Shown here: piece by piece, positions 37,590 to 56,940 of the stretch
Layout of the letters: each line of letters opens with the position of its first letter
How positions within the stretch are numbered: the first letter of the stretch is position 1
Virus record (IMG/VR): IMGVR_UViG_3300021440_000014
Span: 1-64,000 of that record
From: a virus
Direction: 5' to 3' (one strand)
DNA: 64,000 nt
Notes under the pieces: generated by a model
Told to the model about the DNA's origin: nothing
The model's input: the letters and a program-made list of their open reading frames with translations, nothing else
Databases searched by the model: none
Program-made: the position numbers and the translations under genes

Positions 37590-38912
37590 TTAACTTATTA
37601 ACGTATTGCCTACACTAGGTAAGTATCCGCTCATGAAAAGACCTCTATCGCTTTGGAGTGGACCGCCAATCTGTGAAGAAAAGCTTAAGGAAACTCCTTT
37701 ATTTGGGCCAATAGATGAGGTATATGATTGAGAATCAAGTTTAGCGTTTTTCAGCACGTATTTCATCATTGTAAAATTACCCGTCTGAGGATGAGCTATA
37801 TTTACTTCTATATCATAGTTTTTATCTTGAGATATTGCTTCTACTAAATTTCCAGTAGAGATATCACCAAGATTTGCGTCGATAGAAAGGTTTACCTGAA
37901 CAGGGAACCTAATTTCTCTACTAAAAGCATACTTGCTTCCAAGTTTTTCGAGCGGATCTCTAGAAAGTGAAAAGCTTAGATTATAACTTTGAATTTTAGC
38001 ATCAGATATTAATGCACCAAGTTCCTGCTGATTAGAACTGCTTCCGCCCTGAAGAACTTTAAAAGTAATATCTCCCGGTTTAAGAACGCTTATTGAATAG
38101 GGACTTCTAAATTGACTTGCTGTAGGAGTAGCATTAGGTCCATTTACTGAGGTAGTAAATGAAAATCCAGACCAAGGATTAGTAACGGCAACAGGCACAC
38201 ATACAAATTTTTGGTTATTATTGGACGCAGAAACATTTACAGCAGATCCATCAGCGGGGTTGACGGCTGGATTATTAATTAAATATATACCAGAGAATCC
38301 TTCACCACCTTCATAATTACCAAATCCAGCACCATTGGTAGGGAGTGGCGTTTGGAACATTATATTAAGCCCCTCTAACGAAACATTAGTAGTAGGAAAA
38401 TTGCCTACCGAACCTTCTGTAGAGAAATTAGAAATAAAACAATTGCCTAAAGAGACGAAAGATATTTTATTATAATTACTTCCATTGTTTTCGCCGTGAT
38501 TTATCGCATCAATACCTTCTGGGACAGTTTTTACAAAGTAATTTTTGTCGTCCTGAGTTTTATTAAGAATATTAGAAATGCAGCTTACATTTTGGTTAGA
38601 GCCAGAATTGATTGTGAATCCAAGCATTTGTTCATTATAGAAATTCGCATTTAAATAAGAGAAATCAAGATTAACAGTAGGAGACTCAAGAAGAATTCTA
38701 TCTATAGCCGCCAATTCCCCAAATTGGTTAACATCTCTTCTGTTCAAAGAATAACCGTAGTTAATAGATTGGACTCTAAAAAGTTGTTTAGTTAGCGGTC
38801 TTGGATTTAAACCTGTATTAACTATTAAATTATCATCATTTTGTATTCCTGTAGAAGGACTTGGCCCAACGTATAGGACTTCGTTTTGGTAAATTACTCT
38901 ATTCTTTGGCAT
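37590..38912 (-). CDS. Tail-tube paralogue (minor, AT-rich codons)
   Basis: A 440-residue paralogue of the protein at 38986-40245. They share long blocks: VQSINYGYSLNRRDVNQFG, AAIDRILLESPTVNLDFSYL, ISNFSTE.SVGNFPTT and IQSYNLSFSLSRDPLEKLGS. Codon choice is AT-rich like most of the genome: the shared block ILLESPTVNLD uses AGA/ACT/AAT/GAT where the paralogue uses CGT/ACC/AAC/GAC. This suggests lower expression and a minor or specialised tube ring, perhaps near the tip or terminator end. It has its own GTGTAA motif at 38928-38933 and its own transcript. Confidence 0.65.
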   Translation of the reverse strand: MPKNRVIYQNEVLYVGPSPSTGIQNDDNLIVNTGLNPRPLTKQLFRVQSINYGYSLNRRDVNQFGELAAIDRILLESPTVNLDFSYLNANFYNEQMLGFTINSGSNQNVSCISNILNKTQDDKNYFVKTVPEGIDAINHGENNGSNYNKISFVSLGNCFISNFSTEGSVGNFPTTNVSLEGLNIMFQTPLPTNGAGFGNYEGGEGFSGIYLINNPAVNPADGSAVNVSASNNNQKFVCVPVAVTNPWSGFSFTTSVNGPNATPTASQFRSPYSISVLKPGDITFKVLQGGSSSNQQELGALISDAKIQSYNLSFSLSRDPLEKLGSKYAFSREIRFPVQVNLSIDANLGDISTGNLVEAISQDKNYDIEVNIAHPQTGNFTMMKYVLKNAKLDSQSYTSSIGPNKGVSLSFSSQIGGPLQSDRGLFMSGYLPSVGNTLIS

Positions 38913-38985: not shown

Positions 38986-40245
38986 TTAGTAATCAATACT
39001 AGGAGCAAGACCGCTGAAGAACAAGCCCTTAGTCGTCTGCAACGGACCACCGATTTGAGACGAGAAGCTCAATGACACAGACTTATTAGGTCCAATTGAC
39101 GAAGTATAAGACTGAGAATCCAACTTAGCATTTCTCAAAGTATACTCAAGTGCTCTTAGAGAACCTGTTTGAGGGTGCTTAATTGCAATTCTAATGTCGT
39201 AGCTCTTATCTGCTTGAATAACGTCAACCAAGTTACCAGTGGTAAGGTCGCCAACGTTTGCGTCAACAGAAAGGTTCACTTGGACAGGGAATCTAATTTC
39301 TCTGGCGAACGCATATTTGCTGCCCAGCTTTTCAAGCGGATCTCTTGAAAGAGAGAAGCTTAGGTTGTAGCTCTGAATCTTCGCATCAGAAATCGTAAGA
39401 CCAGCTTCGTTAAGAGAGTTAGTTGTTCCAGCGTCCCAGAAGTCGAACGTGATGTCTCCCGGTCTTAAAGCCGAAATATTGTATGCATATCCTGCGTCAC
39501 CTACTCCAAGGTTTCCGCTTCCATAAGTGCCGAACATCTTACCATTAATAGCGTTACTCTTGAACGGAGGAATAGCAGCGTAAGTGCTTAATCCAGAGCC
39601 ATCAACGGGATTAACTGCTGGGCTAGGAACCCAAGATCCAGTTGCAAGTAATCCACCAGTAGCAGGAGCAACGAATCCGTTACCGCTTTGCTTTTGAGTA
39701 AATAAAATGTTAAGACCTTCTACGGAAACGCTAGTCGTTGGGAAATTACCAACGGACGCCTCGGTAGAGAAGTTAGAAATGAAACCGTTACCAATCGCAA
39801 TATATTGTTCTGGATTAGCACCGGAAAGTCCAGCATATTCAGCGGCATCAACACCTTCTGGAACAGTTTTAATAAAATAGTTTCTATCGTCTTCGGTCTT
39901 GTTAAGAATGTTAGCGATAGCAGATACATATCCCTGACCAGTATTAATGTAAAAACCTAACGCTTCTTCATTAGAGAAAGACGAGTTAAGATAAGAAAAG
40001 TCGAGGTTAACGGTAGGGGATTCAAGCAAAATACGGTCAATAGCAGCGAGTTCACCAAATTGGTTCACGTCCCTTCTATTCAAAGAGTAACCATAGTTAA
40101 TGGATTGAACTCTGACTAATTGTTTAACCTTGTAAAAACCAGTAGTTTGCCCAGCGGCAGTAACGGTTCCGTATTGCGTTCCTGTTGCAGGTGCAGGACC
40201 GGCTAGTAAACCTTCTGTTTGGTAAATTATTCTATTTTTTGCCAT
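38986..40245 (-). CDS. Major tail-tube protein
   Basis: A 419-residue protein proposed as the main tail-tube subunit. It has two tube-like halves: the first with QSINYGYSLNRRDVNQFG and FISNFSTEASVGNFPTTSV, the second with IQSYNLSFSLSRDPLEKLGS and SYTSSIGPNKSVSLSFSSQI. Codon use is visibly GC-richer (CGT, ACC, AAC, GAC, GGT) than in its paralogue at 37590 or in most neighbours, and like the major capsid gene, as expected for a very abundant protein. It is a single-gene transcript: GTGTAA motif upstream at 40279-40284 and a strong terminator downstream. The leader has no Shine-Dalgarno. Confidence 0.7.
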   Translation of the reverse strand: MAKNRIIYQTEGLLAGPAPATGTQYGTVTAAGQTTGFYKVKQLVRVQSINYGYSLNRRDVNQFGELAAIDRILLESPTVNLDFSYLNSSFSNEEALGFYINTGQGYVSAIANILNKTEDDRNYFIKTVPEGVDAAEYAGLSGANPEQYIAIGNGFISNFSTEASVGNFPTTSVSVEGLNILFTQKQSGNGFVAPATGGLLATGSWVPSPAVNPVDGSGLSTYAAIPPFKSNAINGKMFGTYGSGNLGVGDAGYAYNISALRPGDITFDFWDAGTTNSLNEAGLTISDAKIQSYNLSFSLSRDPLEKLGSKYAFAREIRFPVQVNLSVDANVGDLTTGNLVDVIQADKSYDIRIAIKHPQTGSLRALEYTLRNAKLDSQSYTSSIGPNKSVSLSFSSQIGGPLQTTKGLFFSGLAPSIDY

Positions 40246-42719: not shown

Positions 42720-43058
42720 TTATTTACCTTCGCCGAGAATTTTTAATGCGCTAGTTGAAATACTTTTGCCATTATTGGTTTGTTTTGCGGGCATTTTATA
42801 TAAACCAACGTATGCATTAAACTCTTTAACGAGTTTTCTGACGATAAGATCTCTGTTATCGCTGGGCTGAACACCAACTTTTCTTGCGTGAAGTTGTAAA
42901 TCAGACAGATTCATAGATTGAATCTCTTTGATATATTCGTCTAGCTTAAGTGTTCCGTATTTAGTCATTCCTTTGTCACCCCAAACTTGATCTAGAGTAG
43001 AGGGCGCGAAATTTTCTTCTTTACCGTTAATTTGAGTGATTTTTTTTGGTTTTGCCAT
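42720..43058 (-). CDS. Small protein with Rho-N/SAP-like helix motif
   Basis: A 112-residue basic protein. The segment MNLSDLQLHARKVGVQPSDN matches the Rho N-terminal/SAP-like helix-extended loop-helix fold, a small nucleic-acid-binding motif often seen in phage virion proteins. The rest is disordered and Lys-rich. It follows the beta-helix gene on the same strand with a 33-base gap and no visible promoter, so it probably shares the 48698-start transcript. Function unknown; head or connector DNA contact is possible. Confidence 0.5.
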   Translation of the reverse strand: MAKPKKITQINGKEENFAPSTLDQVWGDKGMTKYGTLKLDEYIKEIQSMNLSDLQLHARKVGVQPSDNRDLIVRKLVKEFNAYVGLYKMPAKQTNNGKSISTSALKILGEGK

Positions 43059-43091: not shown

Positions 43092-45005
43092 CTAATCTAT
43101 TTTCTTGAAGCCGGGACCGATATCTCTTCTTCTAGAGCTATTTCCAGAATAAGACGCTTTTGGATCTGCTACGAATGGATTAGTTCCATAATAATATCTA
43201 TATCCTGCGGGAATCCTTGTTGGTTCATTTTCGGTAGGCTTATATGGATCGTATGGTGGCCACTGTAAGCTACCAAAGAATGTAGGCTTTGAAGTTAAAT
43301 AAAAGCTATTTGGAATTGTTTTATCATAAGTATGAACTACATTTTTTTCATCCCAAACAATTGCAGATCCGGGAGCTAAATCGCTGGCTCTATAACTCCA
43401 ATTACCCCATCTTATCATTGTTTCTCTTACGTTAGTATCGTATTCAAGAGATTCTCTTGGATTACGAGAATCATCTCCTGAACCATTTATTATATACCCT
43501 AATTTAAAAAGCGTAGTATAAACGTTGTCGTAAGGGAAATATTTTAGATTATAACACTCGTAAATAGATTCTGGTGCCCCTCCCGTTGTTCCTCCTAAAA
43601 TATTACCAACAAACATCCAATAATGATTTCTTCTACAAACATCTACGGTTATCGTCTGGGCGTCTATAAATTCATTCCCTCTATCTTGAGAAAATATTCT
43701 ATTTCTAAGAATAGTAAAATGAGAGCTTGTCCCCCAATATTCGTCTGCTCTTATACCTGATGCTGAAAAATTTCCTTCTATTAAATTCATAAAAGGATGT
43801 CCTCCGTGCATCAAATTACTAAATCTTCTAATAATATCTGAATCTCCTTCTCCTAATCTCCACCAAATATTTGTAACGAAATTATAGCTAACTACATTTC
43901 CAGAAGTGCATCCTTCAAAACATACTGTTCCTATCGTTAGTTTTTCTGATATATTATCCGTAATCAATAAAGCAGAAGTATGAGGGCCAAGAAAAATAGG
44001 ATATGCCCTGTCTGAAGTATAATGTAAATCTCTTTCGTTTCCGACCGGAACTCCTCCATAGAGATAGCAACCGCTTATTTCTGACCATAAAGCGTTATAA
44101 ACCCAGAAAGCCCTTCTATGTGCTCCTATCAATTTCACATTTTTTACCCAACAATTAACCCATCCAAAAACCGTAATAGTATCAAACGCATCTGAGTCTA
44201 GGTTATCAAGAGTTAAATTTTCTAAACCAGCCTCCTCTACCATTGGCCCAATTCTTACCGCTTGAGGTTGGTTTGTATAAGAAAAATACAAAGGAGGATC
44301 TATTTGAACCGTCGTTGAATTAACTACGTTAGTTATTTTGACTATTTGCCCACATGGTCTAGTCCCAGATTCTCTACCCAACCAAGTAGCATACTGATTA
44401 GCTCCTCCTCCTCCTGTTCCGGCTGATGTAAAATTCGAAACAGGAAGAATAGCACCCTCATTCGTTTTAGTGTCTACTATGAGATATTGACCTACTGACC
44501 AATTATGTGTTGTAGAAGTAGTTAAATTAACGGAATCTTTTGTTGGAGACACTAAATCAAAAGCTGGATAAGTTGACCAAGAGAAATCAAAACCCATATC
44601 AAAATTAACCATTCTTTTTGATAAAAGTTTAATTGGAGTAATTACTCCTGTTTCTGCATTCGTTGAATAGGAAGATATATAAAAAAGATCTGGAGAAACC
44701 CCTTTAATAATAGTTTCATACATGTTTTCTCCTTTTAAAGTTACATAACTTGGGATTTTTAAAGCTTCATCTATTAAATATGTTCCATTTTTTAAAAGAA
44801 CAATTTTATTTGGTGGGCAGTTACTTATAGCTGCTTGTATTTGTTTCGTTGTAGCCCCCGGATTTATAATAGTATAAATTTCTCTGTCCGTATTCACCGT
44901 AGATCTAAGACCCGGATTCCAGTTTATTCTTAAATTATCTGGAATAATAGTAGAAAAACAGTTATGAATAAATAGGAAAAAAAGTAAAAAATAAATTGAT
45001 TTCAT
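43092..45005 (-). CDS. Secreted right-handed beta-helix (pectate-lyase-like) protein, copy 1
   Basis: A 637-residue protein with a Sec signal peptide (MKSIYFLLFFLFIHNCFST). The mature start is IIPDNLRINWNPGLR, then an 'ATTKQIQAAISNCPPNKIV' pattern and a pectate-lyase-type parallel beta-helix with many short turns. Fold members cut or bind polysaccharide. It is a paralogue of the proteins at 46890 and 48767, sharing 'YWGTSSHFT.LRNRI', 'F.GPH..A.LITDN' and 'WGNW.YR'. Last in an operon with a jelly-roll and a fibre-like protein, each with a signal peptide. Catalytic residues cannot be assigned by eye. Exported depolymerase or secreted adhesin are both possible. Confidence 0.7.
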   Translation of the reverse strand: MKSIYFLLFFLFIHNCFSTIIPDNLRINWNPGLRSTVNTDREIYTIINPGATTKQIQAAISNCPPNKIVLLKNGTYLIDEALKIPSYVTLKGENMYETIIKGVSPDLFYISSYSTNAETGVITPIKLLSKRMVNFDMGFDFSWSTYPAFDLVSPTKDSVNLTTSTTHNWSVGQYLIVDTKTNEGAILPVSNFTSAGTGGGGANQYATWLGRESGTRPCGQIVKITNVVNSTTVQIDPPLYFSYTNQPQAVRIGPMVEEAGLENLTLDNLDSDAFDTITVFGWVNCWVKNVKLIGAHRRAFWVYNALWSEISGCYLYGGVPVGNERDLHYTSDRAYPIFLGPHTSALLITDNISEKLTIGTVCFEGCTSGNVVSYNFVTNIWWRLGEGDSDIIRRFSNLMHGGHPFMNLIEGNFSASGIRADEYWGTSSHFTILRNRIFSQDRGNEFIDAQTITVDVCRRNHYWMFVGNILGGTTGGAPESIYECYNLKYFPYDNVYTTLFKLGYIINGSGDDSRNPRESLEYDTNVRETMIRWGNWSYRASDLAPGSAIVWDEKNVVHTYDKTIPNSFYLTSKPTFFGSLQWPPYDPYKPTENEPTRIPAGYRYYYGTNPFVADPKASYSGNSSRRRDIGPGFKKID

Positions 45006-45775
45006 AAAGGATCGCTTCCAATTTTATCAGGGCTAACTCTCACTTTGTCTATTCTATAATCTGATGGAGTGTACTCAGAGTAAAACCATATTCCATTAGC
45101 TGAACCAGTTGACTTACCATTTGTTATCGCAGTGTAAAAAGATGATCCGCTGGCAGGTTTAGTTTCGCTATTCAAAGCCATAAATACTTCAGCAAGTGAA
45201 TTAGCTCCAGTTCCGGCAACATAATGTAACCATATACTTATAGTATCCGTAGGTGCTGCGGCACCAACTGTAGATATTTCTACATAGCCAGTTGATCCAA
45301 AAGCTCCTTCTATTAATTTCAAAGTGCCATTATAATTTAAATACAGCGAACAAATAGGAGTGTTATCTTGACTCCCAGACATTAAATTAAAAATAGTTGT
45401 TCCGTCTTGATATGTAACTCTTTTGAATCTAAAATACACATATACCTCTGAAGTTAAATCAAAAGCCCCAACGTAGTAGATACGAGCACCATCTTGAAGT
45501 CTTAAACTTTTAGAGCCAACAAGAGGATCTGTAGCATACGCGAATTCAACAGTTCCCACTAAAGGAAAACCAACAACAAATTGTTGAACCCAACCCGGAA
45601 GAAAAACTCCTTCTTGAGCATCCTCGAAATCTTCTTTATAAATATAAGTTGGAGCAGCCTCACAACAATCTGGGTTTTTAGTTAAATGATTTTTTCTTTT
45701 AAAGATTGAAACCTGCTGAGAAAAACACTGAGTAGATAAAAGAAATAAAAATATTAAATTTAAAATTTTTACCAT
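45002..45775 (-). CDS. Secreted jelly-roll (concanavalin-like) protein, copy 1
   Basis: A 257-residue protein with a Sec signal peptide ending CFSQ. The body is a concanavalin-like beta-sandwich: YKEDFEDAQEGVFLPGW, SKSLRLQDGARIYYVGAFD, VYVYFRFKRVTYQDGTTIFN, GTLKLIEGAF, IWLHYVAGTGANSLAEVF and YRIDKVRVSP. Its paralogue is at 50593, and the 'W/YHYVAGTGAN' strand is shared (VRYVAGSGANG there). Domains of this fold bind glycans. It shares 4-7 base overlaps with both neighbours. Role: probably binds the polysaccharide that the linked beta-helix protein acts on; inference. Confidence 0.65.
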   Translation of the reverse strand: MVKILNLIFLFLLSTQCFSQQVSIFKRKNHLTKNPDCCEAAPTYIYKEDFEDAQEGVFLPGWVQQFVVGFPLVGTVEFAYATDPLVGSKSLRLQDGARIYYVGAFDLTSEVYVYFRFKRVTYQDGTTIFNLMSGSQDNTPICSLYLNYNGTLKLIEGAFGSTGYVEISTVGAAAPTDTISIWLHYVAGTGANSLAEVFMALNSETKPASGSSFYTAITNGKSTGSANGIWFYSEYTPSDYRIDKVRVSPDKIGSDPL

Positions 45776-46890
45776 GTTGCCGTCTCCTCTGGATCAACTA
45801 AGTTCTCGAAATACCTTATGACAATGAAATATATTTTGGCTACTCCGGGTAAGTCGTCTGCGGTTTCATCAACTAATCTTCTTATTCTTAAATCTAGAAT
45901 AGCCCCAGAAGTAGACGTTGAATGCCCAAGATTTAAGTTGCCACTTGAAGAGGATTTTATTAAATCGTTAAAAGCGGTTTGCGAGCTAGTTATTTTTATT
46001 TCAGTGCCATAAGATTGATCTACTGGATCATCGTGTTCTACCATATCTGCGGATATACCCCAAACTACGGATTTACTTGGGATTGCATTTGAAGCCGACC
46101 AATAGACTTTTACCTCTACATTACCTTTATCCCAAGTTTCAGGCATCGGGACGGAAGCGCAAACAGTTTGTATAGTCGTATTTGTAAACTCCATAAAGTC
46201 TCTTCTTTTAAAATTTACGATACTTTCTTCTGTCCCATAAATTGCGCCAGCCGTAAAATTAGTTAGCATGGCTCCCGCTGGTATAGCTAAGGTTCTGTAA
46301 ATACCAGATCTAGAATTATTCCTCCACTCTCCTTCTCCAGTGGTAGAATTAGTGCATGTCCAAACGTAGTTACTTTGCGCATTGCTATTGGGAATTCTAA
46401 TGTCAAATAATGTTGGACTGCGATTATAAACATTAGTATTATATAGACCCGTTCTATTATTTTGATATGAATCACACCAAAACTTTTGATTACTATAATT
46501 AAAGAAATACATGTTAGTAGAAGGGATTCCTCCTAAAACTGGATTGCTACCATCTAACTCTTTCGCATTAGAAGGAAAATACGCAAAAACAGAATTAGTA
46601 TTAACCAATTCTACAACTACCTGTTTAAATGTATTCGCTTCGTTTGGTTGATTGGCAAATGATATAGTGAAATTATTGCTAGGATAAACTATATAGTAAT
46701 TAGTCCTCCAATCTACAACTATGTTTGTTGTATTGTTAAGTTTAATCATCGTTTTAGATCCATTTTTAAGATTAAAAATGGAAAGACCTGTCTGAACAAC
46801 GAACCCAGTAACAGGATCATATTGAACAGTTCTTAGTTGTCCGAAACAAGTAATGGCACTAAGCAATAAAAATAAAAATATATTTCTCAT
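45769..46890 (-). CDS. Secreted fibre-like beta protein, copy 1 (longer)
   Basis: A 373-residue protein with a Sec signal peptide (MRNIFLFLLLSAITCFGQ). Residues ~30-145 match the paralogue at 51351: NTTNIVVDWRTNYYIVYPSN, VVVELVNTNSVFAYFPSN, STNMYFFNYSNQKFWCDSYQ. That pattern is common in phage tail-fibre domains (strand, then 'G..W.DS'). A second C-terminal beta-sandwich (AMLTNFTAGAIYGTEESIVN... through VIRYFENLVDPEET) is absent from the shorter copy. It overlaps the upstream beta-helix gene by one base (TAATG). A virion-type domain behind a signal peptide is unusual. Confidence 0.6.
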   Translation of the reverse strand: MRNIFLFLLLSAITCFGQLRTVQYDPVTGFVVQTGLSIFNLKNGSKTMIKLNNTTNIVVDWRTNYYIVYPSNNFTISFANQPNEANTFKQVVVELVNTNSVFAYFPSNAKELDGSNPVLGGIPSTNMYFFNYSNQKFWCDSYQNNRTGLYNTNVYNRSPTLFDIRIPNSNAQSNYVWTCTNSTTGEGEWRNNSRSGIYRTLAIPAGAMLTNFTAGAIYGTEESIVNFKRRDFMEFTNTTIQTVCASVPMPETWDKGNVEVKVYWSASNAIPSKSVVWGISADMVEHDDPVDQSYGTEIKITSSQTAFNDLIKSSSSGNLNLGHSTSTSGAILDLRIRRLVDETADDLPGVAKIYFIVIRYFENLVDPEETATW

Positions 46891-48698
46891 TAGTCTTTCT
46901 TGATTATAATTTCAAATTTTCCTTTTCCAAAAATCGTTTCTGGCGCAGGAGTTGGATCTACTACGGGTGGGGGTTCCTGTGTTCCTCCAGAAGAAGCGGG
47001 TGGATTTACTCCATAAACATATCTATATCCTGCTGGAATATTTGTTGGCGAAAAATTAGGATTAGAAGGATCGTATGGGGGCCATTTTAGGAAACCGAAA
47101 GAAGAAGGTTTGCTAGTGAGATAAAAGCTATCAGGAATTACTTTGCTAGTAGTATCTACGACATTATTAGGGTGCCAAGTTTGACCTGAGCCAGCTATCG
47201 TATCATTTGTCCTATAGCACCAATTGCCCCATCTAATCATAGTAATCAAAGTAGAAGGATCATAGCTTGTTGCCCCACTTCCTAGGCTATTATAGCCTAT
47301 TTTCCAAATAGAAGAAATAGAACTGCTATAAGGAGCAGGCTCTCCATTAATTAATTCGTAATTTCCCTCTTGGACTTCCGTTCCGCCAAGTAAATTACCA
47401 ATGAAAGACCAATACCAATTACGTCTTTCAACGTCTACTGTCCAAGTTTGTGCGTCATCTGCGCCTCTATCTATCTGGCAAATTCTATTTCTCAACGCAG
47501 TGAAATGAGAGCTTGTTCCCCAATACTCGTCTGCCCTGATACGTCCGCCACTCCAATTTCCTTCTATAAGATTCATCATGGGGTGAGGACCATGCATAAG
47601 CGGGCCAAAGCGTCTCGGGCTATCTCCAGTATTAGACCACCAAATATTTGTAATAAAATTATAGCTGAAAACATTACCAGAAGAGTTACCCTCCCAGCAC
47701 ATACCCATCGTAAGTTTTTCGAGAATATTGTCAGTAATTAAACATGCGGTCGCGTGTGGGCCAAGAAAAGGAGCATAAGATCTATCGCTAATATAAGCTC
47801 CGCTATTATCTGTTCCTACGGGGCGACCCTCATGAATTAAACATCCATTAATTTCGAACCATAGCGCATTATAAACCCAATAAGATCTTCTATCTATACC
47901 TCTCACTTCTATGTTCTTTGTCCAGCAATTAACTGCCCCAAAAACGCCTACGTTGTCTCTAACCCTAACTGGATGACCATTTAGCGACAAATCCTCTGCT
48001 CCAGCATACTCTGTGATTCCTGTCATTTTTACTCCCTGCGGAGAATTTGCGTAGCTCCAGTAAAGAGGGGGACTAAATGTAACGCTTGTTGGAGAAACTA
48101 CTGACGTAATTTTGACAAGTTGACCAACGCATCTTCTGCCTGAGTCTCTACCTACCCAATTAGCAGAACCTAAAGAGCCAGCATGATCCATTGGGGGGTT
48201 TCCGGCTGGCTGCTCTAACATATCAAAAAGAACTAAATCTCCAGTCACCCATCCATGTGCTGTAGTTGTGCTAATTGTATCACTATCTTTAACGGCTGAT
48301 ACTATAGATTTGGCGGGTTGACTCCAACTTTCATCAAAATTATTATCGAAAGAAATAATAGTGCTTCCAGAAAAGGCTGCGGCAGGTTGAAGGATAGTAT
48401 TACTAATTCCCGCCCCCCTCAAAGTAACTTTACTTGGGATTACTAGAGTCGAAGAAAGATTATAAGTTCCAGAAGATAATTGAACTACCTGATTTTGAGG
48501 ACAAGTATCTAATGCCGATTGAATTTCTGCTTTCGTCGCTCCAGCAGCAATAGTTTTAAAAATTACTGTTCTATTGGGGATTCCGCCTCTAACTCCAGCG
48601 TCCCAATTGATTCTATAAGAAGGAGGAAGAATTTCGCTTAAGCAACTGAAAGCGAAAAACATAAAAATAATAAAAATGGTAAATCTGATTTTGTTCAT
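46890..48698 (-). CDS. Secreted right-handed beta-helix protein, copy 2
   Basis: A 602-residue paralogue of the protein at 43092. N-terminal signal peptide (MNKIRFTIFIIFMFFAFSCLS; a cysteine near the cleavage site does not make a good lipobox). Mature part: INWDAGVRGGIPNRTVIFKT, then 'ATKAEIQSALDTCPQNQVVQ' and a beta-helix with shared blocks (YWGTSSHFTALRNRICQ). The C-terminus has a Pro-rich linker (TQEPPPVVDPTPAPE) before a short basic tail. It opens the operon that runs to 42720, after a GTGTAA motif. Likely polysaccharide-active or -binding; enzyme activity not provable here. Confidence 0.7.
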   Translation of the reverse strand: MNKIRFTIFIIFMFFAFSCLSEILPPSYRINWDAGVRGGIPNRTVIFKTIAAGATKAEIQSALDTCPQNQVVQLSSGTYNLSSTLVIPSKVTLRGAGISNTILQPAAAFSGSTIISFDNNFDESWSQPAKSIVSAVKDSDTISTTTAHGWVTGDLVLFDMLEQPAGNPPMDHAGSLGSANWVGRDSGRRCVGQLVKITSVVSPTSVTFSPPLYWSYANSPQGVKMTGITEYAGAEDLSLNGHPVRVRDNVGVFGAVNCWTKNIEVRGIDRRSYWVYNALWFEINGCLIHEGRPVGTDNSGAYISDRSYAPFLGPHATACLITDNILEKLTMGMCWEGNSSGNVFSYNFITNIWWSNTGDSPRRFGPLMHGPHPMMNLIEGNWSGGRIRADEYWGTSSHFTALRNRICQIDRGADDAQTWTVDVERRNWYWSFIGNLLGGTEVQEGNYELINGEPAPYSSSISSIWKIGYNSLGSGATSYDPSTLITMIRWGNWCYRTNDTIAGSGQTWHPNNVVDTTSKVIPDSFYLTSKPSSFGFLKWPPYDPSNPNFSPTNIPAGYRYVYGVNPPASSGGTQEPPPVVDPTPAPETIFGKGKFEIIIKKD

Positions 48699-48738
48699 AT
48701 AAGTATTATAATAATTAAAGTATGTAATATATACTTTT

Positions 48739-48744
48739 TTACAC
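48739..48744 (-). promoter_or_regulatory. GTGTAA motif, candidate late promoter for secreted operon 1
   Basis: GTGTAA reading leftward, 40 bases above the ATG at 48698, in the 68-base gap after the gene ending at 48767. No other promoter-like element is apparent until 42702, so it likely serves the five genes 48698 to 42720. Confidence 0.5.
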
Positions 48745-48766
48745 TATTTTAGGGATAATCAATAGA

Positions 48767-50596
48767 TTACCTGTCCATAGATTTTATATTAGGTCTTCCT
48801 TTACCATTTATGACTCTAATGTTTCCAGTTGATAGCCCAGATCCAGAACCCCCTCCACCCCCGCCTCCTTCTTGAGGGGGATTCCCTAGTCCAAAAGCTC
48901 TCCAAGCCGCAGGAAGATTAGTAGCAGTATTCATTGCTAAAGATCTAGTAGGATCAAACGGTGGCCAACTTAGCCCAGCAAAATTAGTTGGTTTAGCACT
49001 AAGATAAAATGAGTTAGTTATAGTAGTGTAAGAAGTATCTAAAACGCTGTTCGTGTGCCAAACTTGACCACTACCACTTATGCTATCATTAGTTCTGTAA
49101 GTCCAGCAGCCCCAACGAATTGTATTTGTCCATACATAAGGATCATAATTTGCACTGGTATTGCCTAAACTTTCATAGCCCAACTTCCAAATTGTTGCAG
49201 TTCCTTCTGAAAAAGATTCGCCTAATATGTATTCATAATTGCTTTCGTTGACACCGGGAGCACCACCTGCAACTTCGCCAAGAAACACCCAATTGCGGTT
49301 GTTTCTTTCAATGTCGTAAGTCCAAGCTTGTTGGGCGGGCGAACCTCTATCAACCTGAAGAACTCTATTGCGTAAGCTTACAAAACTATCTGAAGTTCCA
49401 AAGTATTCGTCTGCCCTTGTTCTGCCAGCAAGCCAATTGCCTTCAATAAGGTTTAAAGTAGGGTGAGGTCCGTGCATCAATACTGCAAAGCGGCGAGGAG
49501 GATCAGTGTTTGCGTCCCACCAGATATTAGTAGTATAATTATAAGAAAATACATTACCAGAAGCAGCACCTTCAAAAGATATCGCCATAGTAACCTTTTC
49601 TATCCAATTATCTGTAATTAAACCTGCGGAGCAGTGCGGACCAAGAAACCCACCATAGGCACGTTCGCTAGTATACTGCGCGTCATTATCATTTCCTACC
49701 GGAATACCTCCTTCAATATGGTTTGCTGAAATTGTTGGCCACAAAGCTCCATAAACCCAATATGCTCTAGATTTTATACCTCTTATATGGCACCTAGTAA
49801 CCCAACATTCTATGGCTCCTTGCCATTGAGTATTATGATCTATGGTTAAAGAGCTATTAGCGATAGTTACATCTTCCACTCCAGCCCTGTGAACTAATCC
49901 AGTTATTTTCGCTGACTGAGGGGAATTACTATAGCTACTATAAAAAGGAGGATCTATTTGAAATACAGTAGTAGATACAATATTTGTAATTTTAGATACT
50001 TGACCATTAGGGCGGTTTCCTACCGCCGCTGGTCTTCCGCAGTAATTACAATCTCCAAGTGTCCCTCTATTCCTGATAGGCTTTAAATTAGAAGTATTAG
50101 TAACTTGATCTATTATGACATAATCGCCTGCGCTGTAACCATGAGCCACGGAAGAGGTTGCATTCACGCTACCTTTTACTGGAGTGACTAAATCTCTTAT
50201 TGGTCCACTATCCCAATGGTAGCTATAACCATTATCAAACATTACTATTGTATTTCCTGAAAAAGTAGGAGCATTAGTCAATATAGTTACTCCCATGCCA
50301 GCCCCTCTTAAAGTCACGCCATCTTTACTCATCTCTATACTAGCAGAAAGAGAGTAAACTCCAGCAGATAAAAGGACTACTTGGTTCGATGGACACGCAG
50401 CTATAGCAGCATTAATTGTTGCTGCTGAAGCACCAGATACTATTGTGGTATAAATCGTTTGACGATCTGGAATGCCCCCTCTAACCCCCGGATTCCATTC
50501 TATAATTCTTTCATCTGGAATTATGGGCGAAAAGTTCTGAGATAGAGCATTAAAACAAAATGCTAATATAAATAAAATTGAAAATATTTTTTTCAT
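48767..50596 (-). CDS. Secreted right-handed beta-helix protein, copy 3
   Basis: A 609-residue paralogue of the proteins at 43092 and 46890. Signal peptide MKKIFSILFILAFCFNALSQ; then IIPDERIIEWNPGVRGGIPD, 'AATINAAIAACPSNQVVLLS' and a beta-helix body (YFGTSDSFVSLRNRVLQ; GFLGPHCSAGLITDNW). A poly-Gly linker (PQEGGGGGGGSGSG) precedes a short C-terminal tag NIRVINGKGRPNIKS. Similar glycine linkers appear in the neighbouring jelly-roll and repeat proteins. It is the last gene of the operon from 52438 and ends 22 bases before the next motif. No enzyme residues can be named. Confidence 0.7.
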   Translation of the reverse strand: MKKIFSILFILAFCFNALSQNFSPIIPDERIIEWNPGVRGGIPDRQTIYTTIVSGASAATINAAIAACPSNQVVLLSAGVYSLSASIEMSKDGVTLRGAGMGVTILTNAPTFSGNTIVMFDNGYSYHWDSGPIRDLVTPVKGSVNATSSVAHGYSAGDYVIIDQVTNTSNLKPIRNRGTLGDCNYCGRPAAVGNRPNGQVSKITNIVSTTVFQIDPPFYSSYSNSPQSAKITGLVHRAGVEDVTIANSSLTIDHNTQWQGAIECWVTRCHIRGIKSRAYWVYGALWPTISANHIEGGIPVGNDNDAQYTSERAYGGFLGPHCSAGLITDNWIEKVTMAISFEGAASGNVFSYNYTTNIWWDANTDPPRRFAVLMHGPHPTLNLIEGNWLAGRTRADEYFGTSDSFVSLRNRVLQVDRGSPAQQAWTYDIERNNRNWVFLGEVAGGAPGVNESNYEYILGESFSEGTATIWKLGYESLGNTSANYDPYVWTNTIRWGCWTYRTNDSISGSGQVWHTNSVLDTSYTTITNSFYLSAKPTNFAGLSWPPFDPTRSLAMNTATNLPAAWRAFGLGNPPQEGGGGGGGSGSGLSTGNIRVINGKGRPNIKSMDR

Positions 50597-51360
50597 GGTG
50601 CTGACGTGGAATCTCCTACTTGAATTTTATCGTAGATTAATTCCATAATACCTGTAAAGTCTACCCAGCCTATAGCCAGCCAGTTAGCATTTGCTGTTCC
50701 TGTTCCAGTGCTTAAGCTAGTAAAATTATTTCCAGAAGTGGGACGAGAGCCATCTGTAGAGAAACATACTGAAGCAACTCCATTTGCCCCGCTACCCGCA
50801 ACGTATCTAATATAAACATGATAAGTGGTTCCATCAGACATTGTTCCAACAGTAGCAGACGAAGAGGTCGCCCCATGTCTTACTTTCAGTGCCCCGCCAG
50901 ATGTCAATAAAACATCTGCAATCCTACTTTGAGAAGAGTTCCATATTTCTAGCATTTTGGCGTCTCCAGAATTAGGTGTGCTAACTGGTCTTATCATGAA
51001 ATAAAACCATCTTTCTGATCCAGCAGTAAAAGTATTGTATATGAAACTAGAAGCATCACTTGCAGTTAATATTCTTAAAGATTGGCTACCATCTAGAACC
51101 GTAGTAGTATAGTCTTCATTAACTGTTCCTCCTCCAAGGGATTCAGTCCACGCAGGGGAAGTAGTTGAATATCCTGTTCCTTCAAAAGTTTCGTTTAAAA
51201 GAGTAGAAGTAAGTCCTCCGCTACCTCCCCCACCACCACCGCTAGACACTTTATATTTTAATATAGATGAAATAAATGAAACGTTCCTAACCCCAACTGA
51301 ATAAGAAGGCGTAAAAGAAAAAAGAATGAATAATATGATTAAATATTTTTTCATTTCCAT
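50593..51360 (-). CDS. Secreted jelly-roll (concanavalin-like) protein, copy 2
   Basis: A 255-residue paralogue of the protein at 45002. The signal peptide is followed by a short stem and a poly-Gly hinge (SSGGGGGGSGG near 37-47), then the concanavalin-like domain (LLNETFEGTGYSTTSPAW, GSQSLRILTASDASSFIYN, RWFYFMIRPVSTP, VYIRYVAGSGANGVASV). Two starts fit: ATG at 51360 or ATG at 51354; the latter gives an ATGA overlap with the upstream stop. It overlaps the beta-helix gene downstream by 4 bases. Likely a glycan-binding partner. Confidence 0.65.
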   Translation of the reverse strand: MEMKKYLIILFILFSFTPSYSVGVRNVSFISSILKYKVSSGGGGGGSGGLTSTLLNETFEGTGYSTTSPAWTESLGGGTVNEDYTTTVLDGSQSLRILTASDASSFIYNTFTAGSERWFYFMIRPVSTPNSGDAKMLEIWNSSQSRIADVLLTSGGALKVRHGATSSSATVGTMSDGTTYHVYIRYVAGSGANGVASVCFSTDGSRPTSGNNFTSLSTGTGTANANWLAIGWVDFTGIMELIYDKIQVGDSTSAP

Positions 51361-52115
51361 TCAGAAATAGTTGTATAAACGTTCGTTCCTTCTGCGTCTA
51401 AAGTTAATATATAAGTTATCGAATTCGTAAGAGTAGACCAAATAGGAGAGTTGACGTTTGTATAAAAATAAGTTGCAAAACTAGGTCCACCTAAAGTAGG
51501 ATAAACTACAGTTCTGTTTACAAGTTGAGGTTTTATATATATAACTTTTGTTTTGCTTGTGCCAGCCTGCAAACCAGTTACATTCGTTATACTTATGTTA
51601 TTAGTAAGATACCAAGTCTCTGTTGGGACTTCCAAGTTTACTGTTAAATTACTGTTTACAGTGCTATTCGTGGCAACGTTTATAGTCGTTAAATTTTGAT
51701 ATATTTCCTGATGTGAATCTATCCAAAAAGTAGTTCCATTATATCTCATTGTGAACCAATTAGTTGACGGAGCCGCAGACATAAATGGAGTCGTAAAATT
51801 AGGCCCATTTGTAGGGAAATAAGCTATAGTAGAGTTGGTATTAACTACCTCTAAAACTATCGAGGCATAAGTTGATCCCGAACTTGGAACATTCGTCCAA
51901 GAAATAGAGAAATCATTACTCGGAGTAGCTCGGTAGTAATTCGTATTCCAACTGAGTAATACGTTTGTCGTATTGCCCAAATCAACCTGAGAATTTCTAA
52001 GTGCCGTTGGGACTAATTTTCTAGTAGAAGAATCGTATATTACAGTATTATATGTTGCCGCAAAAATAGAATTAAGCGTCAAAAAAAACAAGCAAATTAT
52101 TAATATTTTTTTCAT
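51351..52115 (-). CDS. Secreted fibre-like beta protein, copy 2 (shorter)
   Basis: A 254-residue protein with a Sec signal peptide (MKKILIICLFFLTLNSIFA). Residues ~25-135 match the paralogue at 45769 (NTTNVLLSWNTNYYRATPSN, VLEVVNTNSTIAYFPTN, STNWFTMRYNGTTFWIDSHQ). The rest differs: a low-complexity Asn/Thr stretch (NLTTINVATNSTVNSNLTVN), then a beta-rich end. It starts within the stop of the BppU-like gene, so a secreted protein is co-translated with a baseplate-type protein. Function unknown. Confidence 0.6.
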   Translation of the reverse strand: MKKILIICLFFLTLNSIFAATYNTVIYDSSTRKLVPTALRNSQVDLGNTTNVLLSWNTNYYRATPSNDFSISWTNVPSSGSTYASIVLEVVNTNSTIAYFPTNGPNFTTPFMSAAPSTNWFTMRYNGTTFWIDSHQEIYQNLTTINVATNSTVNSNLTVNLEVPTETWYLTNNISITNVTGLQAGTSKTKVIYIKPQLVNRTVVYPTLGGPSFATYFYTNVNSPIWSTLTNSITYILTLDAEGTNVYTTISEWK

Positions 52116-52438
52116 TAAGAAACGTCCTCAATTACAGCGAAAATAAAATTATTTCCGGGTGGAAAAGTCATTTGGTTAGAGTCAGGAAAAGTTACCAAAA
52201 ACTCACCTTCATAAAAACCTTTTACAGATGTATCTCCAGAAACCCATGAATATTGGGCTATTCCCTGAGATGCGTCATAAACAGAGCCAGTCCTAGTAAT
52301 TATATCTCCAGAAGGGCGCAATTTATAATTAAAATTGACCAAGCAACCAGAGAGGTTAATGTTCTCTTCATTAGAGTCCTGTAGTTGAACTCTTAATACA
52401 GGGAGCACGTCCCCCTTTTTTAAATAAAAATCTATCAT
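52115..52438 (-). CDS. BppU-like baseplate protein N-terminal domain
   Basis: A 107-residue protein whose whole length fits the N-terminal domain of BppU-type baseplate upper proteins: FYLKKGDVLPVLRVQLQDSN, LSGCLVNFNYKLRPSGDIIT, AQYSWVSGDTSVKGFYEGEF, VTFPDSNQMTFPPGNNFIF. In other phages this domain anchors receptor-binding proteins to the baseplate. Here it stands alone, opening an operon of signal-peptide proteins. The 5' leader after the GTGTAA motif is only ~9 bases, so the mRNA may be nearly leaderless. Confidence 0.65.
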   Translation of the reverse strand: MIDFYLKKGDVLPVLRVQLQDSNEENINLSGCLVNFNYKLRPSGDIITRTGSVYDASQGIAQYSWVSGDTSVKGFYEGEFLVTFPDSNQMTFPPGNNFIFAVIEDVS

Positions 52439-52447
52439 AAAATATTT

Positions 52448-52453
52448 TACACT
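52448..52453 (-). promoter_or_regulatory. GTGTAA motif, candidate late promoter for secreted operon 2
   Basis: GTGTAA reading leftward, with only 9 bases (AAATATTTT region) between it and the ATG at 52438. Its last base is also the first base of the stop of the repeat protein gene at 52453. Confidence 0.5.
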
Positions 52454-55400
52454 TATAACTTCCTAATAACTGTCCTGCTATCCGAATACGGACTCTTTAT
52501 GGTTATAAAATTACCAGCATTTTTAATCTTTGGATTTAAATTCGCATTAGAGTTTTTTATAATTATAGAACTTGAAGGAGCGACAAAAATCCTTGCTCTT
52601 GCAGACTGATGAACAGAAGAATAAGGTGCAGAACCAATAAGAGCTTTACCTGAAATGCTCTTGTCCAAAGATTTTCTAATTCTTGCAATCGCATTAATAT
52701 ATTTCTGAGCAACTAATGAAACTCTAGCTCTAGCAAGTATATTTTTGAAATTAGCATTCGCGATACTAGAAACAGCAAATTGATTTCTAAATACAGATCT
52801 AGATACTCTAGCAATAGAATTAATATTTTTCTGCGAAGAAATTTTAATCCTTGCGATTGCTAACTGATTCTTTAAGTAAAGAACTGATATAGAAGCCCTT
52901 GAAGACTGATTATAAGAGCTTGTTCTTGTTACTCTTGCTAACGATTGCTGGTTTTTAGCCAACGTAGCCGCAATCCTAGCTCTACCAGAGATAGACTGAA
53001 CCTGTAACGCGCTTCCAATTCTAGCAATACCAGATATATTTAAGCTATTCGTTTTACGTATCCTAGATATAGCCTGAATATTTTGAGCAGAAGATATATA
53101 AATAGAGCTTCTTGCGCTAATATTCTGAGAATAAGTTCTAGAAATTCTTGATACAGCATTTAAATTCTTCTGAGCCGAAGAAGTTATTCTTGCTCTAGCT
53201 GTAATTGAGTTTTGCTGTAATGCTGAACCGATTCGAGATACAGCAGAAATATTGTAACCTAAAGATTTAGATAACCTAGAGATAGCCTGAATATTATAGC
53301 TATTTGTTTTTGATACTCTGGATAAAGCAGATTGATTTTTATCAAAAGTTCTCTTTACTCTTGATAAAGCCTGAATATTTTGCTGTCTTACAGCAGTAAT
53401 GCGCGAAACAGAGCTTATATTAGCCGTATTCTGCTTTTGTATCCTAGATACAGAAGAGATATTTCTATTATATGTAGCTTTAACTCTCGATACGCCACTT
53501 ATGCTATAACTAGAGCTATTTTTAATTCTAGCTATACCTTGTTGGTTTTTCGAGGCAGAAGGATTGCCGATATAAGCTCTACCAGAAATACTAGAGAACC
53601 CAATGCTGTCTTGAGAAACTCTTAATGTTACCGTATCTCCCTCTAGGACAAGATAAATTCTATGATACGTTCCATCATCGGGGCAATATAGTATTACGTC
53701 ATTTCTATAGGGGCTTGAAGTCTCCGTTTGATTTATAGAAACGAATACATTATTAGAGTCTGATTCGTCCGCGAAAACATTGTAAGCTTTAGCGGAATCT
53801 TGGCAGAACAAGTTCCAGTTTAAAGCCGCAGAAGGAGGATTAGACTGATATTGGTCTATGTTTAATGTATAAACTCCATCCTGAGTTCTTAATCTTAGGG
53901 CATACCAGTTACTAGAATTTCCTAAAATTAAAACATCTGTGGAGTCCGCATTTTTAATTACTCTTGCTACCGACTGCTGATAAACGGAGCTAGGAGTTCC
54001 ACTCGAAATATATGCTCTGGCCTGCTGAGTCTTATTAACTTGACCTCTTATGTTAGAAGTTCCAGAAATACTTCTGTCTATAGCTGCTGTTCCAATCCTA
54101 GCGACAGCCTGAATGCTCTTTATAGCTGGGGCTTTAACATTCGCTAAAGACTGAATATTTTTGCTATAAGAAACTTTTATTCTAGATATAGAGCTTTGAT
54201 TTTTGCTGCTCGTTAAAGATATCCTAGATATAGCCTGTTGGAATTTTAAGCTGGAATTGGATATTCTTGCTCTTCCTTGAATATTATTCTGTTTTGCGGA
54301 AGTTATTCTTGAAACAGATTGAATATTATAATTAGAAGCTTTCGATAATCTAGATATAGCAGATTGATTTTTCGAGAACGAAGCAGAAATTCTAGCAATC
54401 GACTGCTGATTCTTGGATATAGATATTTTTATCCTAGAAATGGCTTGAATACTATACAGCCTAGAATTGGCGACACGCGCCAAAGCCTGTATATTATTAT
54501 TACCTTTAGTCGCTGTTATTCTGGCTATACCTTGCTGATTTTTGGAAACAGAAGAGGTTATTCTAGAAACGGACTGAATATTATAAAGCTTAGAATTAAC
54601 AACTCTCGATATAGATTGTATGTTGTTATTATTCTTTGTGGCTGTTATTCTGGATAGAGCCTGCTGATTCTTTTGAGTAGAAATGAATATTCTAGAAACA
54701 GATTGGATATTATAAAATCTAGCATTGACTATTCTTGCCGTGCTCTGGATGAAATAGTTTTTACCAGAAGTAATTCTTGATATCGCTTGTTGATTTTTAT
54801 TTAGTGAATTTCTAACGGAAGAAATAGACTGAATAAATTTTTGGCCAGACGCAGTAATCTTAGCGACAGAAGATATATTCTTGAATAAACTATTACTAAT
54901 TCTAGCTCTTGCTTGCTGGAAATTATTAGTTTTAGCAGACGTTATTCTTGAGACTGCACTTAAATTATAATTACGACCAACGGAAATCCTAGAAATACCC
55001 TGTTGGTTCTTCTGAAAACTATTAGATATCTTAGCGATACCCTGAATACTTTTATTATTAGATACTGTTATCCTTGATCTTCCAGATATAGAATAATCTA
55101 AAGTTTTCGAAACCCTAGCCAAAGATTGCTGGTTCTTCTGATTGGCTATGTAAATTCTAGATATCGACTGGATATTTTTCGCTGAAGAATTTGACAGTCT
55201 AGATACAGAAGAAATATTATACTGACTACTTCTACTTACTCTAGAAATAGCCTGTATATTATAAAATTTAGATAAAGATATTCTTGATATCGCCTGCTGA
55301 TTTATAAAAGAAGATTTATAAATTCTGGCAACAGACTGTATATTTTTGGATACACTTGACTGAATTCTAGCTTTAGCTTGCTGATCCGCAGAGTCTACAA

Positions 55401-56940
55401 CTTTAATTCTAGATACTGCTTGAATATATTCTAGGTTAAAATTAGAAATTCTAGATATAGCCTGAATGTTTTTCTGGGTAGACTGTAAAATACTAGACTT
55501 ACCTTGTATATAATAATTGGAAGTAGAACTTCCTCCCCCGCCACCAGAAGGCGCATTACCAGTAAAAGGATTTAAAGCAACGGCATGTAAAAGAGCATTT
55601 GATGCCGCCATTTCAACGCTAATGTAGCCGCTTGTAAAAATGTCTCTTTCATCTAAACCATCGTTTGTAGTGCTAAACGCTGCGTTTGGCTGAGTATTAT
55701 AAACAGTTAAAGTTCCAGAGGTTCCAGATCCACCAACATCATTTGCGTATGTAAAGTTTACCGCAAATCTTTGGCTGGGACTACCAGTGACAAGAAAATC
55801 ATACCTTGGTGAAGCTTTATATCCTGAAAATTTAGATCCAGTTGGACTTGTTAAATTAACTCCAGAATATTCTATTAAACCGGCAGCTAAAGTAATTGTA
55901 TCGAAAGCCCCGCCAGTGCTTTGAATTCTTACTGTAAATGGATTATTACCAGTTCTGGGATTTAAAAGATAATATTGGTGAGCGTGATTCCAAAATGGAT
56001 CAATCGTCTTACCTATCTCCGTAAAAACTTGATCTCCCCAACAAACACCAGAAATTCCAGAAGGATTAATGCCAGTTGTTACATTACTTTGATTATATGT
56101 AATGTTAGCTATTAATATTGTATTATTATTCGAGTAAGAAGTAAACCCAGAATAAGAAACTACGTATCCGCTACTTGAGGGATCGAAAATAGATCTTTCT
56201 CCTTTGCCGGATATTAAGGCAATTGTAGTTGGCCTGTATAAAGATGCTACGCTAGATTGATTTCTACTATTTTGCCTAGTAATTCTAGAAATACCCGAAT
56301 TACGACCATAGCCCCAAGTCGTAATAGGGTTAGAGAAACCAAGCCAAGGGTTGCCCGTTTGAGTTCCAGACTCTATATAAGGCAAATCTCCAGATTGTGC
56401 ATTGTAACCAAATCTATGCGTCGCCGTTCTAGATGTCGCCAACGCTTCGTAGGCTATAAAACCAACTTCAACAACTAATCTATCACCACCAGAAACGTTA
56501 ATATTTCCGCTGACTCCAGTATAAGGAGGGAAAAATCTTCCGCTTAAAGTAGGGGATAGAGGAAACTCCTGAGATGTTCCAGAATTGGGAAATCCAGAAT
56601 AAATTACGGCTCTTAAAGCGTTAGTAGGAGTAACAGCTTTAATAAGTATAGCATACTGCTGGTTAGCTAATAAGTTATTCTCGGAAACTTGAATGATACC
56701 GCTAATAAAACCGCTAATAGACTGCGTGGCTAATTCATCAGAAACGTATTGGCGAGTAAGAACCCTATAAGGGGTTGTAGCGATTGCTTTTGTGCTTAAC
56801 TTTCCAGTAAAAGCATGGTTAACTGGATTTATGCTGAGGTATCTTTTATCCGCTTCAGTAGTTCTATTCCAGCCGCTCTCGTAATTAATGTTCGTTACGG
56901 GCGCATTACCAGACTGAATAAAATAAAAACGATATGGCAT
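52453..56940 (-). CDS. Giant fibre-like protein with ~60 copies of a 14-residue Arg-ladder repeat
   Basis: A 1,495-residue virion-type protein. The first ~470 residues are non-repetitive: a tail-fibre-like start (EADKRYLSINPVNHAFTGKL, QYVSDELATQSISGFISGII) and beta-rich domains, ending in a poly-Gly hinge (APSGGGGGSSTS). Then come about 36 tandem 14-residue units of the type N-(I/Q)-Q-(S/A)-(I/V)-(S/A)-R-(I/V)-x5-(K/Y), for example NIQSISRIYIANQK and NQQSLARVSKTLDY. A ~110-residue globular insert follows, then ~24 more units and a short C-terminus. Arg recurs at one position of nearly every unit. No signal peptide. Likely a long basic beta-solenoid or fibre shaft on the tail; family unknown. 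Confidence 0.75.
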   Translation of the reverse strand: MPYRFYFIQSGNAPVTNINYESGWNRTTEADKRYLSINPVNHAFTGKLSTKAIATTPYRVLTRQYVSDELATQSISGFISGIIQVSENNLLANQQYAILIKAVTPTNALRAVIYSGFPNSGTSQEFPLSPTLSGRFFPPYTGVSGNINVSGGDRLVVEVGFIAYEALATSRTATHRFGYNAQSGDLPYIESGTQTGNPWLGFSNPITTWGYGRNSGISRITRQNSRNQSSVASLYRPTTIALISGKGERSIFDPSSSGYVVSYSGFTSYSNNNTILIANITYNQSNVTTGINPSGISGVCWGDQVFTEIGKTIDPFWNHAHQYYLLNPRTGNNPFTVRIQSTGGAFDTITLAAGLIEYSGVNLTSPTGSKFSGYKASPRYDFLVTGSPSQRFAVNFTYANDVGGSGTSGTLTVYNTQPNAAFSTTNDGLDERDIFTSGYISVEMAASNALLHAVALNPFTGNAPSGGGGGSSTSNYYIQGKSSILQSTQKNIQAISRISNFNLEYIQAVSRIKVVDSADQQAKARIQSSVSKNIQSVARIYKSSFINQQAISRISLSKFYNIQAISRVSRSSQYNISSVSRLSNSSAKNIQSISRIYIANQKNQQSLARVSKTLDYSISGRSRITVSNNKSIQGIAKISNSFQKNQQGISRISVGRNYNLSAVSRITSAKTNNFQQARARISNSLFKNISSVAKITASGQKFIQSISSVRNSLNKNQQAISRITSGKNYFIQSTARIVNARFYNIQSVSRIFISTQKNQQALSRITATKNNNNIQSISRVVNSKLYNIQSVSRITSSVSKNQQGIARITATKGNNNIQALARVANSRLYSIQAISRIKISISKNQQSIARISASFSKNQSAISRLSKASNYNIQSVSRITSAKQNNIQGRARISNSSLKFQQAISRISLTSSKNQSSISRIKVSYSKNIQSLANVKAPAIKSIQAVARIGTAAIDRSISGTSNIRGQVNKTQQARAYISSGTPSSVYQQSVARVIKNADSTDVLILGNSSNWYALRLRTQDGVYTLNIDQYQSNPPSAALNWNLFCQDSAKAYNVFADESDSNNVFVSINQTETSSPYRNDVILYCPDDGTYHRIYLVLEGDTVTLRVSQDSIGFSSISGRAYIGNPSASKNQQGIARIKNSSSYSISGVSRVKATYNRNISSVSRIQKQNTANISSVSRITAVRQQNIQALSRVKRTFDKNQSALSRVSKTNSYNIQAISRLSKSLGYNISAVSRIGSALQQNSITARARITSSAQKNLNAVSRISRTYSQNISARSSIYISSAQNIQAISRIRKTNSLNISGIARIGSALQVQSISGRARIAATLAKNQQSLARVTRTSSYNQSSRASISVLYLKNQLAIARIKISSQKNINSIARVSRSVFRNQFAVSSIANANFKNILARARVSLVAQKYINAIARIRKSLDKSISGKALIGSAPYSSVHQSARARIFVAPSSSIIIKNSNANLNPKIKNAGNFITIKSPYSDSRTVIRKL
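52590..53605 (-). repeat. Second block of the 14-residue (42-base) tandem repeat, ~24 units
   Basis: Coding tandem repeat with a 42-base period in the distal part of the 52453-56940 gene. Units (NISSVSRIQKQNTA, NIQALSRVKRTFDK, NQSALSRVSKTNSY) keep the N..(S/A)R(I/V) core while linkers vary. The DNA is too diverged for recent slippage; the pattern is protein-level. Confidence 0.7.
53950..55510 (-). repeat. First block of the 14-residue (42-base) tandem repeat, ~36 units
   Basis: Same repeat as the second block, in the middle of the 52453-56940 gene. Three flavours alternate irregularly: K-NQQ, Y-NIQ and x-NIS. A few units have 15 residues (NNIQSISRVVNSKLY). Divergence between units suggests old expansion kept by selection. 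Confidence 0.7.

Follow-up and report, generated by a model that had tools for sequence, protein, structure and literature searches.

The 64-kb window analysed here is a portion of a 172,010-base virus record and carries, on its minus strand, a cassette of seven genes whose products are predicted to begin with signal peptides (SPs). All seven open reading frames (ORFs) appear in the ORF list of the window where a sequence-only reading had placed them. In order of transcription along the reverse strand (51351, 50593, 48767, 46890, 45769, 45002, 43092), the cassette consists of fibre-like, jelly-roll-like and beta-helix genes (set 1), an extra beta-helix gene, and again fibre-like, jelly-roll-like and beta-helix genes (set 2). 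Set 1 encodes a fibre-like protein (51351-52115; 254 aa; predicted SP MKKILIICLFFLTLNSIFA, at 52059-52115), a jelly-roll-like protein (50593-51360; 255 aa; predicted SP at about residues 1-21, followed by a Gly-rich linker) and a beta-helix protein (48767-50596; 609 aa; predicted SP MKKIFSILFILAFCFNALS). The extra beta-helix protein (46890-48698; 602 aa; predicted SP MNKIRFTIFIIFMFFAFSCLS) is followed by the set 2 fibre-like (45769-46890; 373 aa; MRNIFLFLLLSAITCFG), jelly-roll-like (45002-45775; 257 aa; MVKILNLIFLFLLSTQCFS) and beta-helix (43092-45005; 637 aa; MKSIYFLLFFLFIHNCFS) proteins, each again with its predicted SP. Neighbouring ORFs mostly share an overlap of 1-10 bases, so the start codons that open the SPs are coupled starts.

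The cassette is flanked by conserved virion genes, that is, it lies inside the tail gene module. A BppU-like baseplate protein without SP (52115-52438; 107 aa) is first in the set 1 transcription unit, and its PF10651 match (27.6 bits against a cut-off of 23.1) bears out the earlier claim of a BppU-like neighbour. Beyond it lie a virion-type neighbour, a long repeat-rich fibre protein without SP (52453-56940; 1495 aa), and the probable major capsid protein (58208-59305), our synteny anchor, whose role is judged from position and conservation. At the opposite end of the cassette is a conserved lineage gene (42720-43058) that adjoins the capsid gene in relatives; all four of these genes are likewise on the minus strand. 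Long fibre proteins made of short repeats (NIQSVSRI / QTGVARI style) occur at 52453-56940 in the window and at L213:8233-13911, and are common to the relative G047. Three paralogues matching the same relative genes, two in the window (37590-38912 and 38986-40245) and one at G000 64568-66364, apparently represent a multiplied tail protein.

The two sets are clearly related to each other. The fibre-like pair (51351 and 45769) shares 38% identity over 150 aa (E 1e-26), the jelly-roll-like pair (50593 and 45002) 28% identity (E 2e-16), and the three beta-helix paralogues show 44-48% identity to the first one. Judged by these identities of 28-48%, the duplication of the cassette is old and diverged. 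The earlier description of a duplicated cassette therefore holds for two diverged sets plus one additional helix, while the repeat itself is imperfect, with the extra helix standing between the sets. All three beta-helix proteins exceed the Pfam cut-off of 27 bits for PF12708 (29.9 for 43092, 34.8 for 46890 and 30.0 for 48767). Combining an SP with a beta-helix fold family, they are predicted to have the makings of secreted polysaccharide lyases; sequence comparison gave no significant match of the source phage's helices to a solved or characterised enzyme. AlphaFold2 models reached a mean pLDDT of 48 for the jelly-roll-like protein and 31 for the helix, too low for use, and "jelly-roll" is a label guessed in the sequence-only reading. 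Residues 203-310 of the set 2 fibre match gp74 of EBPR siphovirus 2. No virion-attachment N-terminal domain was recognised in the cassette proteins of the source phage.

To call SPs, we applied a rule (basic n-region, hydrophobic stretch, small residues at -3/-1) to the ORFs of the entire 172-kb record. It was passed by 14 of the 159 genes of at least 100 aa, including all seven cassette genes, which form the sole such run in the record, and by only 2 of 291 internal methionines used as a control (0.7%). When the 14 positive genes were shuffled among the 159, a run of seven was never reached in 200,000 trials, in full agreement with the claim of seven consecutive signal-peptide proteins. Within the window, the only other gene passing the rule was the lipoprotein-like 61843. 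By eye, none of the cassette proteins has a canonical lipobox (46890, with AFSC, fits a permissive pattern only), and in six of the seven no lipid anchor or other means of surface attachment is evident. A second SP run, of three genes, lies at G000 117371-120220 (L006:15371-18220); one of its products resembles NMT1-like periplasmic binding proteins, and one of its genes has an SP-bearing homologue in G047 (47% identical). An SP protein with Laminin_G_3 and fn3 domains is encoded at G000 128677-129990 (L007:7677-8990), which is not in the virion region.

Assuming the predicted cleavage sites, the mature cassette proteins contain 30 cysteines in 2847 residues (1.05 per 100 aa), compared with 15 in 7210 residues (0.21 per 100 aa) for the virion proteins of the source phage. 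This fivefold higher content fits folding in an oxidising compartment. As a general proof of export, cysteine content was rejected, since the two groups differ little in the other carriers described below (1.39 vs 1.00).

The hexamer GTGTAA was the most over-represented in the coding-strand gaps between 35 and 64 kb, where 9 of its 10 copies fall inside gaps that make up 2.7% of the sequence (P about 7e-14). These nine late-gene gaps lie on the coding strand between 35341 and 61833, making GTGTAA a motif that may serve as a late promoter or in processing; a late promoter role is our inference. As the sequence-only reading had noted, the motif is shared within the locus: one minus-strand copy (52447-52452) precedes the BppU-like gene and set 1, and another (48739-48744) precedes the extra helix and set 2. 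Genome-wide enrichment was rejected: the motif occurs 49 times and its reversed control 63 times.

Relatives of the source phage and searches in cellular genomes

The source phage belongs to a large uncultivated lineage with conserved gene order, which we defined by relatives of its terminase (54-62% identity, encoded in 105 candidate stretches) and of its probable capsid protein (397 relatives). The cassette had been expected to be syntenic in related phages. This expectation failed: none of the searched relatives of the lineage carries the helix gene, and the variable region next to their capsid gene and their counterpart of gene 42720 encodes collagen-like or other fibres without SP. Small BppU-like proteins were seen by eye at this equivalent locus, and most SP genes of the relatives are short, resemble lipoprotein genes and lie upstream of the gene for the capsid protein. 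Since the fibres at the equivalent locus are SP-less, the predicted export signals are particular to the cassette; for the same reason, we rejected the idea that all fibres of the lineage bear SPs. The central fibre J, used as a query, returned no relatives.

One relative, G048, encodes an SP-bearing fibre beside an SP-bearing beta-helix protein, away from the virion locus. The N-terminal part of the set 1 fibre is related to this SP-fibre, whose C-terminal domain is 58% identical to an SP-less protein of Sphingomonas phage Carli. Other genes of the relatives drew our attention on reading. The 208-kb relative G047 encodes two SP proteins that resemble subtilisin-type proteases (L259:179-2848 and L262:14694-16790), and the equivalent fibre locus of G035 (48307-55059, on L092) contains sulfotransferase-, radical-SAM- and glycosyltransferase-like genes.

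Cellular genomes were screened as well. At the sensitivity of the scan, 84,980 genomes of bacteria and archaea (GTDB) yielded no relative of the helix or the jelly-roll protein, which supports the supposition that the cassette is absent from host genomes. Searches of viral contigs and GTDB with the helix gave no relatives, and tblastn against phages and plasmids gave weak, partial matches only. The jelly-roll scans of GTDB and of the phage records seed on short patterns, which distant members can escape. A recent capture of the cassette from a host was not supported, given a base composition like that of its surroundings and no match in a bacterial genome.

The trio in unrelated phages

In a set of 50,697 phage records, only vir555 (BK063671), a third-party metagenome-type assembly and the only annotated virus matched, contained the jelly-roll family; two additional jelly-roll queries again recovered vir555 alone. 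No member was found among the isolated phages searched. With one matching record among 50,697, cultivation bias may have hidden this family. The vir555 record lists a phrog_332 adaptor and phrog_394/376 tail proteins and labels the host as Methanomicrobiales. In vir555, the tail-fibre gene is immediately followed by genes for a 133-aa protein whose N-terminus is hydrophobic and then for an SP trio in the same order as in the source phage: a fibre-like protein of 768 aa, a jelly-roll protein of 241 aa (vir555_00058, 37% identical to the set 1 jelly-roll) and a beta-helix-style protein of 524 aa.

Profile searches extended the set of carriers, almost all of them metagenomic contigs, to L319, L320, L321, L322, L323 (with near copies L324 and L325), L326 and L327, whose jelly-roll proteins are also related to that of set 1, and, in a second set, to L330, L334, L339 and L340. 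Overall, roughly a dozen unrelated podo- and siphoviruses carry the module, mostly in the order SP-fibre, SP-jelly-roll, SP-beta-helix. The complete module, three neighbouring SP genes so arranged and including a related jelly-roll, occurs twice in the source phage and also in vir555, most of L319-L327, L330 and L339. Exceptions include a fusion in L340, an SP-less gene at the fibre position in L319 and L334, a third gene without clear SP in L339 and a jelly-roll without SP in L328. The carriers belong to different kinds of tailed phage, as shown by the capsid, portal, adaptor, tape-measure and J-type families encoded beside the module. Upstream of the module, several carriers encode a normal tail fibre without SP: a separate SP-less fibre or spike is present in vir555, L320 and L326, and an SP-less protein at the fibre position in L319.

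The product of the last gene of the module matches Beta_helix in L322 and L326, and in L330 it is a relative of pectate lyases (9buj, E 1e-19; VexL, E 3e-5) whose gene adjoins an endolysin gene; other last-gene proteins carry CHB_HEX_C, F5/8 type C or Ig-like modules. In vir555, L319, L320, L321, L323, L327 and L334 no beta-helix model scored above its cut-off, and there the helix label reflects position and sequence style.

Across the carriers, 34 of 37 cassette ORFs passed the SP rule, compared with 7 of 116 others, some of the seven being lipoproteins. Of the three ORFs that failed, inspection revealed an SP in two, namely the third gene of L334 and, with a later start, the helix of L322. 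As the export signal was kept across strongly diverged cassettes, it has probably been selected.

The SP-fibre of L322 matches tail-fibre families, and its residues 17-18, right behind the predicted SP, align with position 2 of baseplate/fibre-connector families; the alignment with T4 gp10 has the same start at position 2 (E 6e-4). By these alignments, an SP is placed before a complete virion-type N-terminus. This bears on an objection to export, namely that the hydrophobic N-termini belong to ordinary virion tailspikes made in the cytoplasm. The position in the tail locus and the fibre-type domains agree with such an explanation, as does the major capsid ORF on the contig of L322 (L332:4374-5351), whose start is also SP-like, so that a virion protein can pass the rule. 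We nevertheless consider it very improbable: all seven proteins and nearly all other cassette members have the basic start, hydrophobic stretch and small -3/-1 residues that internal methionines so rarely provide, and the SP of L322 precedes the virion-type N-terminus instead of replacing it. The capsid ORF itself has 24 extra residues at its start, with a profile offset of about 24, and its SP-like start may be due to a wrongly assigned start codon, with a GTG at residue 25.

Candidate roles of the exported module

Virion parts, including phage depolymerases and fibres, are understood to be made in the cytoplasm, and we know of no described tailed-phage system that uses a dedicated three-protein exported module; no published report of one was found in the open-access literature. 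The closest published precedent found there is the gp40 esterase of Xanthomonas phage PBR31, which has an N-terminal SP, is similar to tail-associated hydrolases and is encoded near the lysis genes (PMC10975493); it is a single esterase, in contrast to the fibre/jelly-roll/helix trio. Virion tailspikes and fibres, such as the PF12708-type spike of PBR31 (PMC10975493) and the P22 tailspike, share beta-helix or fibre domains, late expression and a tail-gene neighbourhood with the cassette. However, they are SP-less and have a virion-binding domain, whereas every cassette member has an SP and no such domain was recognised in the source phage. Secreted cellular pectate lyases and the Vi-antigen lyase VexL (9buj, 6fi2) share the SP and the right-handed beta-helix, and the last gene of L330 is a relative, but these are single cellular genes, and the source-phage helices lack a significant match to a solved enzyme.

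Our best explanation, held at about even confidence, takes the cassette to be a mobile module of late genes whose products, derived from tail fibres and directed at polysaccharide, are exported and act as soluble proteins outside the cytoplasm around lysis. The proteins would be made late by the infected cell from the GTGTAA-marked virion region and carried by Sec and signal peptidase into the periplasm, where disulfides could form. From there they may reach the outside when the cell lyses or by way of a secretion system of the host. Outside, the fibre and jelly-roll parts would bind polysaccharide of the host surface or the surrounding matrix, and the beta-helix part would cut or bind it, freeing progeny or preparing neighbouring cells. 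The proteins would thus act as soluble factors alongside the virion's own SP-less fibres. From the gene content, this is the simplest reading, since carriers often own a virion fibre, the G048 pair is encoded away from the virion locus, and the module of L330 ends in a lyase relative next to an endolysin gene. Counting against it are the gp10-like virion N-terminus retained by the SP-fibre of L322 and the lack of a catalytic match for the source phage's helices, with export, cleavage and enzyme activity all being predictions. In a two-membrane cell, moreover, a type I SP by itself reaches only the periplasm.

Alternatively, the proteins may be virion fibres that are exported, folded and disulfide-bonded in the periplasm, where the SP is removed, and that join the tails when lysis mixes the compartments. 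Such two-compartment assembly would be an unusual route. Its main support is L322, with its SP directly before a complete virion-type N-terminus; the cassettes also occupy the tail-fibre position in many phages, and the G048 fibre has a C-terminal domain in common with a Sphingomonas phage protein. We regard it as a minority possibility, given that several carriers already own an SP-less fibre or spike, that the G048 pair sits outside the virion locus and that no virion-anchoring domain was recognised in the source phage's fibres. The original proposal of a secreted system rather than a set of tailspikes was thus upheld for export, through the recurring SP trio, the SP-less virion fibres kept beside it, the cysteine content and the pectate-lyase relative; its dismissal of a virion role was not, as L322 is compatible with such a role after export.

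Exported fibre and lectin-like proteins could also coat the host's surface polysaccharide and so prevent binding by competing phages or, on debris, by progeny of the phage itself. Receptor-binding-type domains are indeed joined to export signals here, and phage surface proteins for exclusion are known: Ltp-type lipoproteins (PMC3952083) are likewise phage-encoded and exported to the host envelope, but are lipid-anchored and not fibre- or spike-like, whereas the cassette encodes large proteins with type I SPs (46890 being ambiguous). We consider such receptor masking or superinfection control unlikely. That six of the seven proteins show no evident surface anchor speaks against it, and the helix and lyase members suggest cutting. 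Exclusion factors are usually expressed early or in lysogeny, while expression of the cassette looks late, alongside virion genes.

The recurrence of the same exported trio in about a dozen unrelated phages suggests, from predicted features, that numerous phages export such proteins, which probably bind or cut sugars, from the infected cell instead of just building them into the particle. It implies either a soluble arm that attacks capsules or biofilm matrix, or an unrecognised route of tail-fibre assembly. We lean slightly towards the broader view that, in many uncultivated tailed phages, receptor-binding and polysaccharide-cutting fibres are Sec-exported and disulfide-folded outside the cytoplasm, and then form a soluble attack complex or are loaded onto virions at lysis. 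The module is also a predicted source of secreted carbohydrate-active proteins. Separately, a classic tail-fibre-like protein with an SP and paired cysteines is encoded on an unrelated phage contig (L301:8231-9337; IMGVR_UViG_3300011443_000049).
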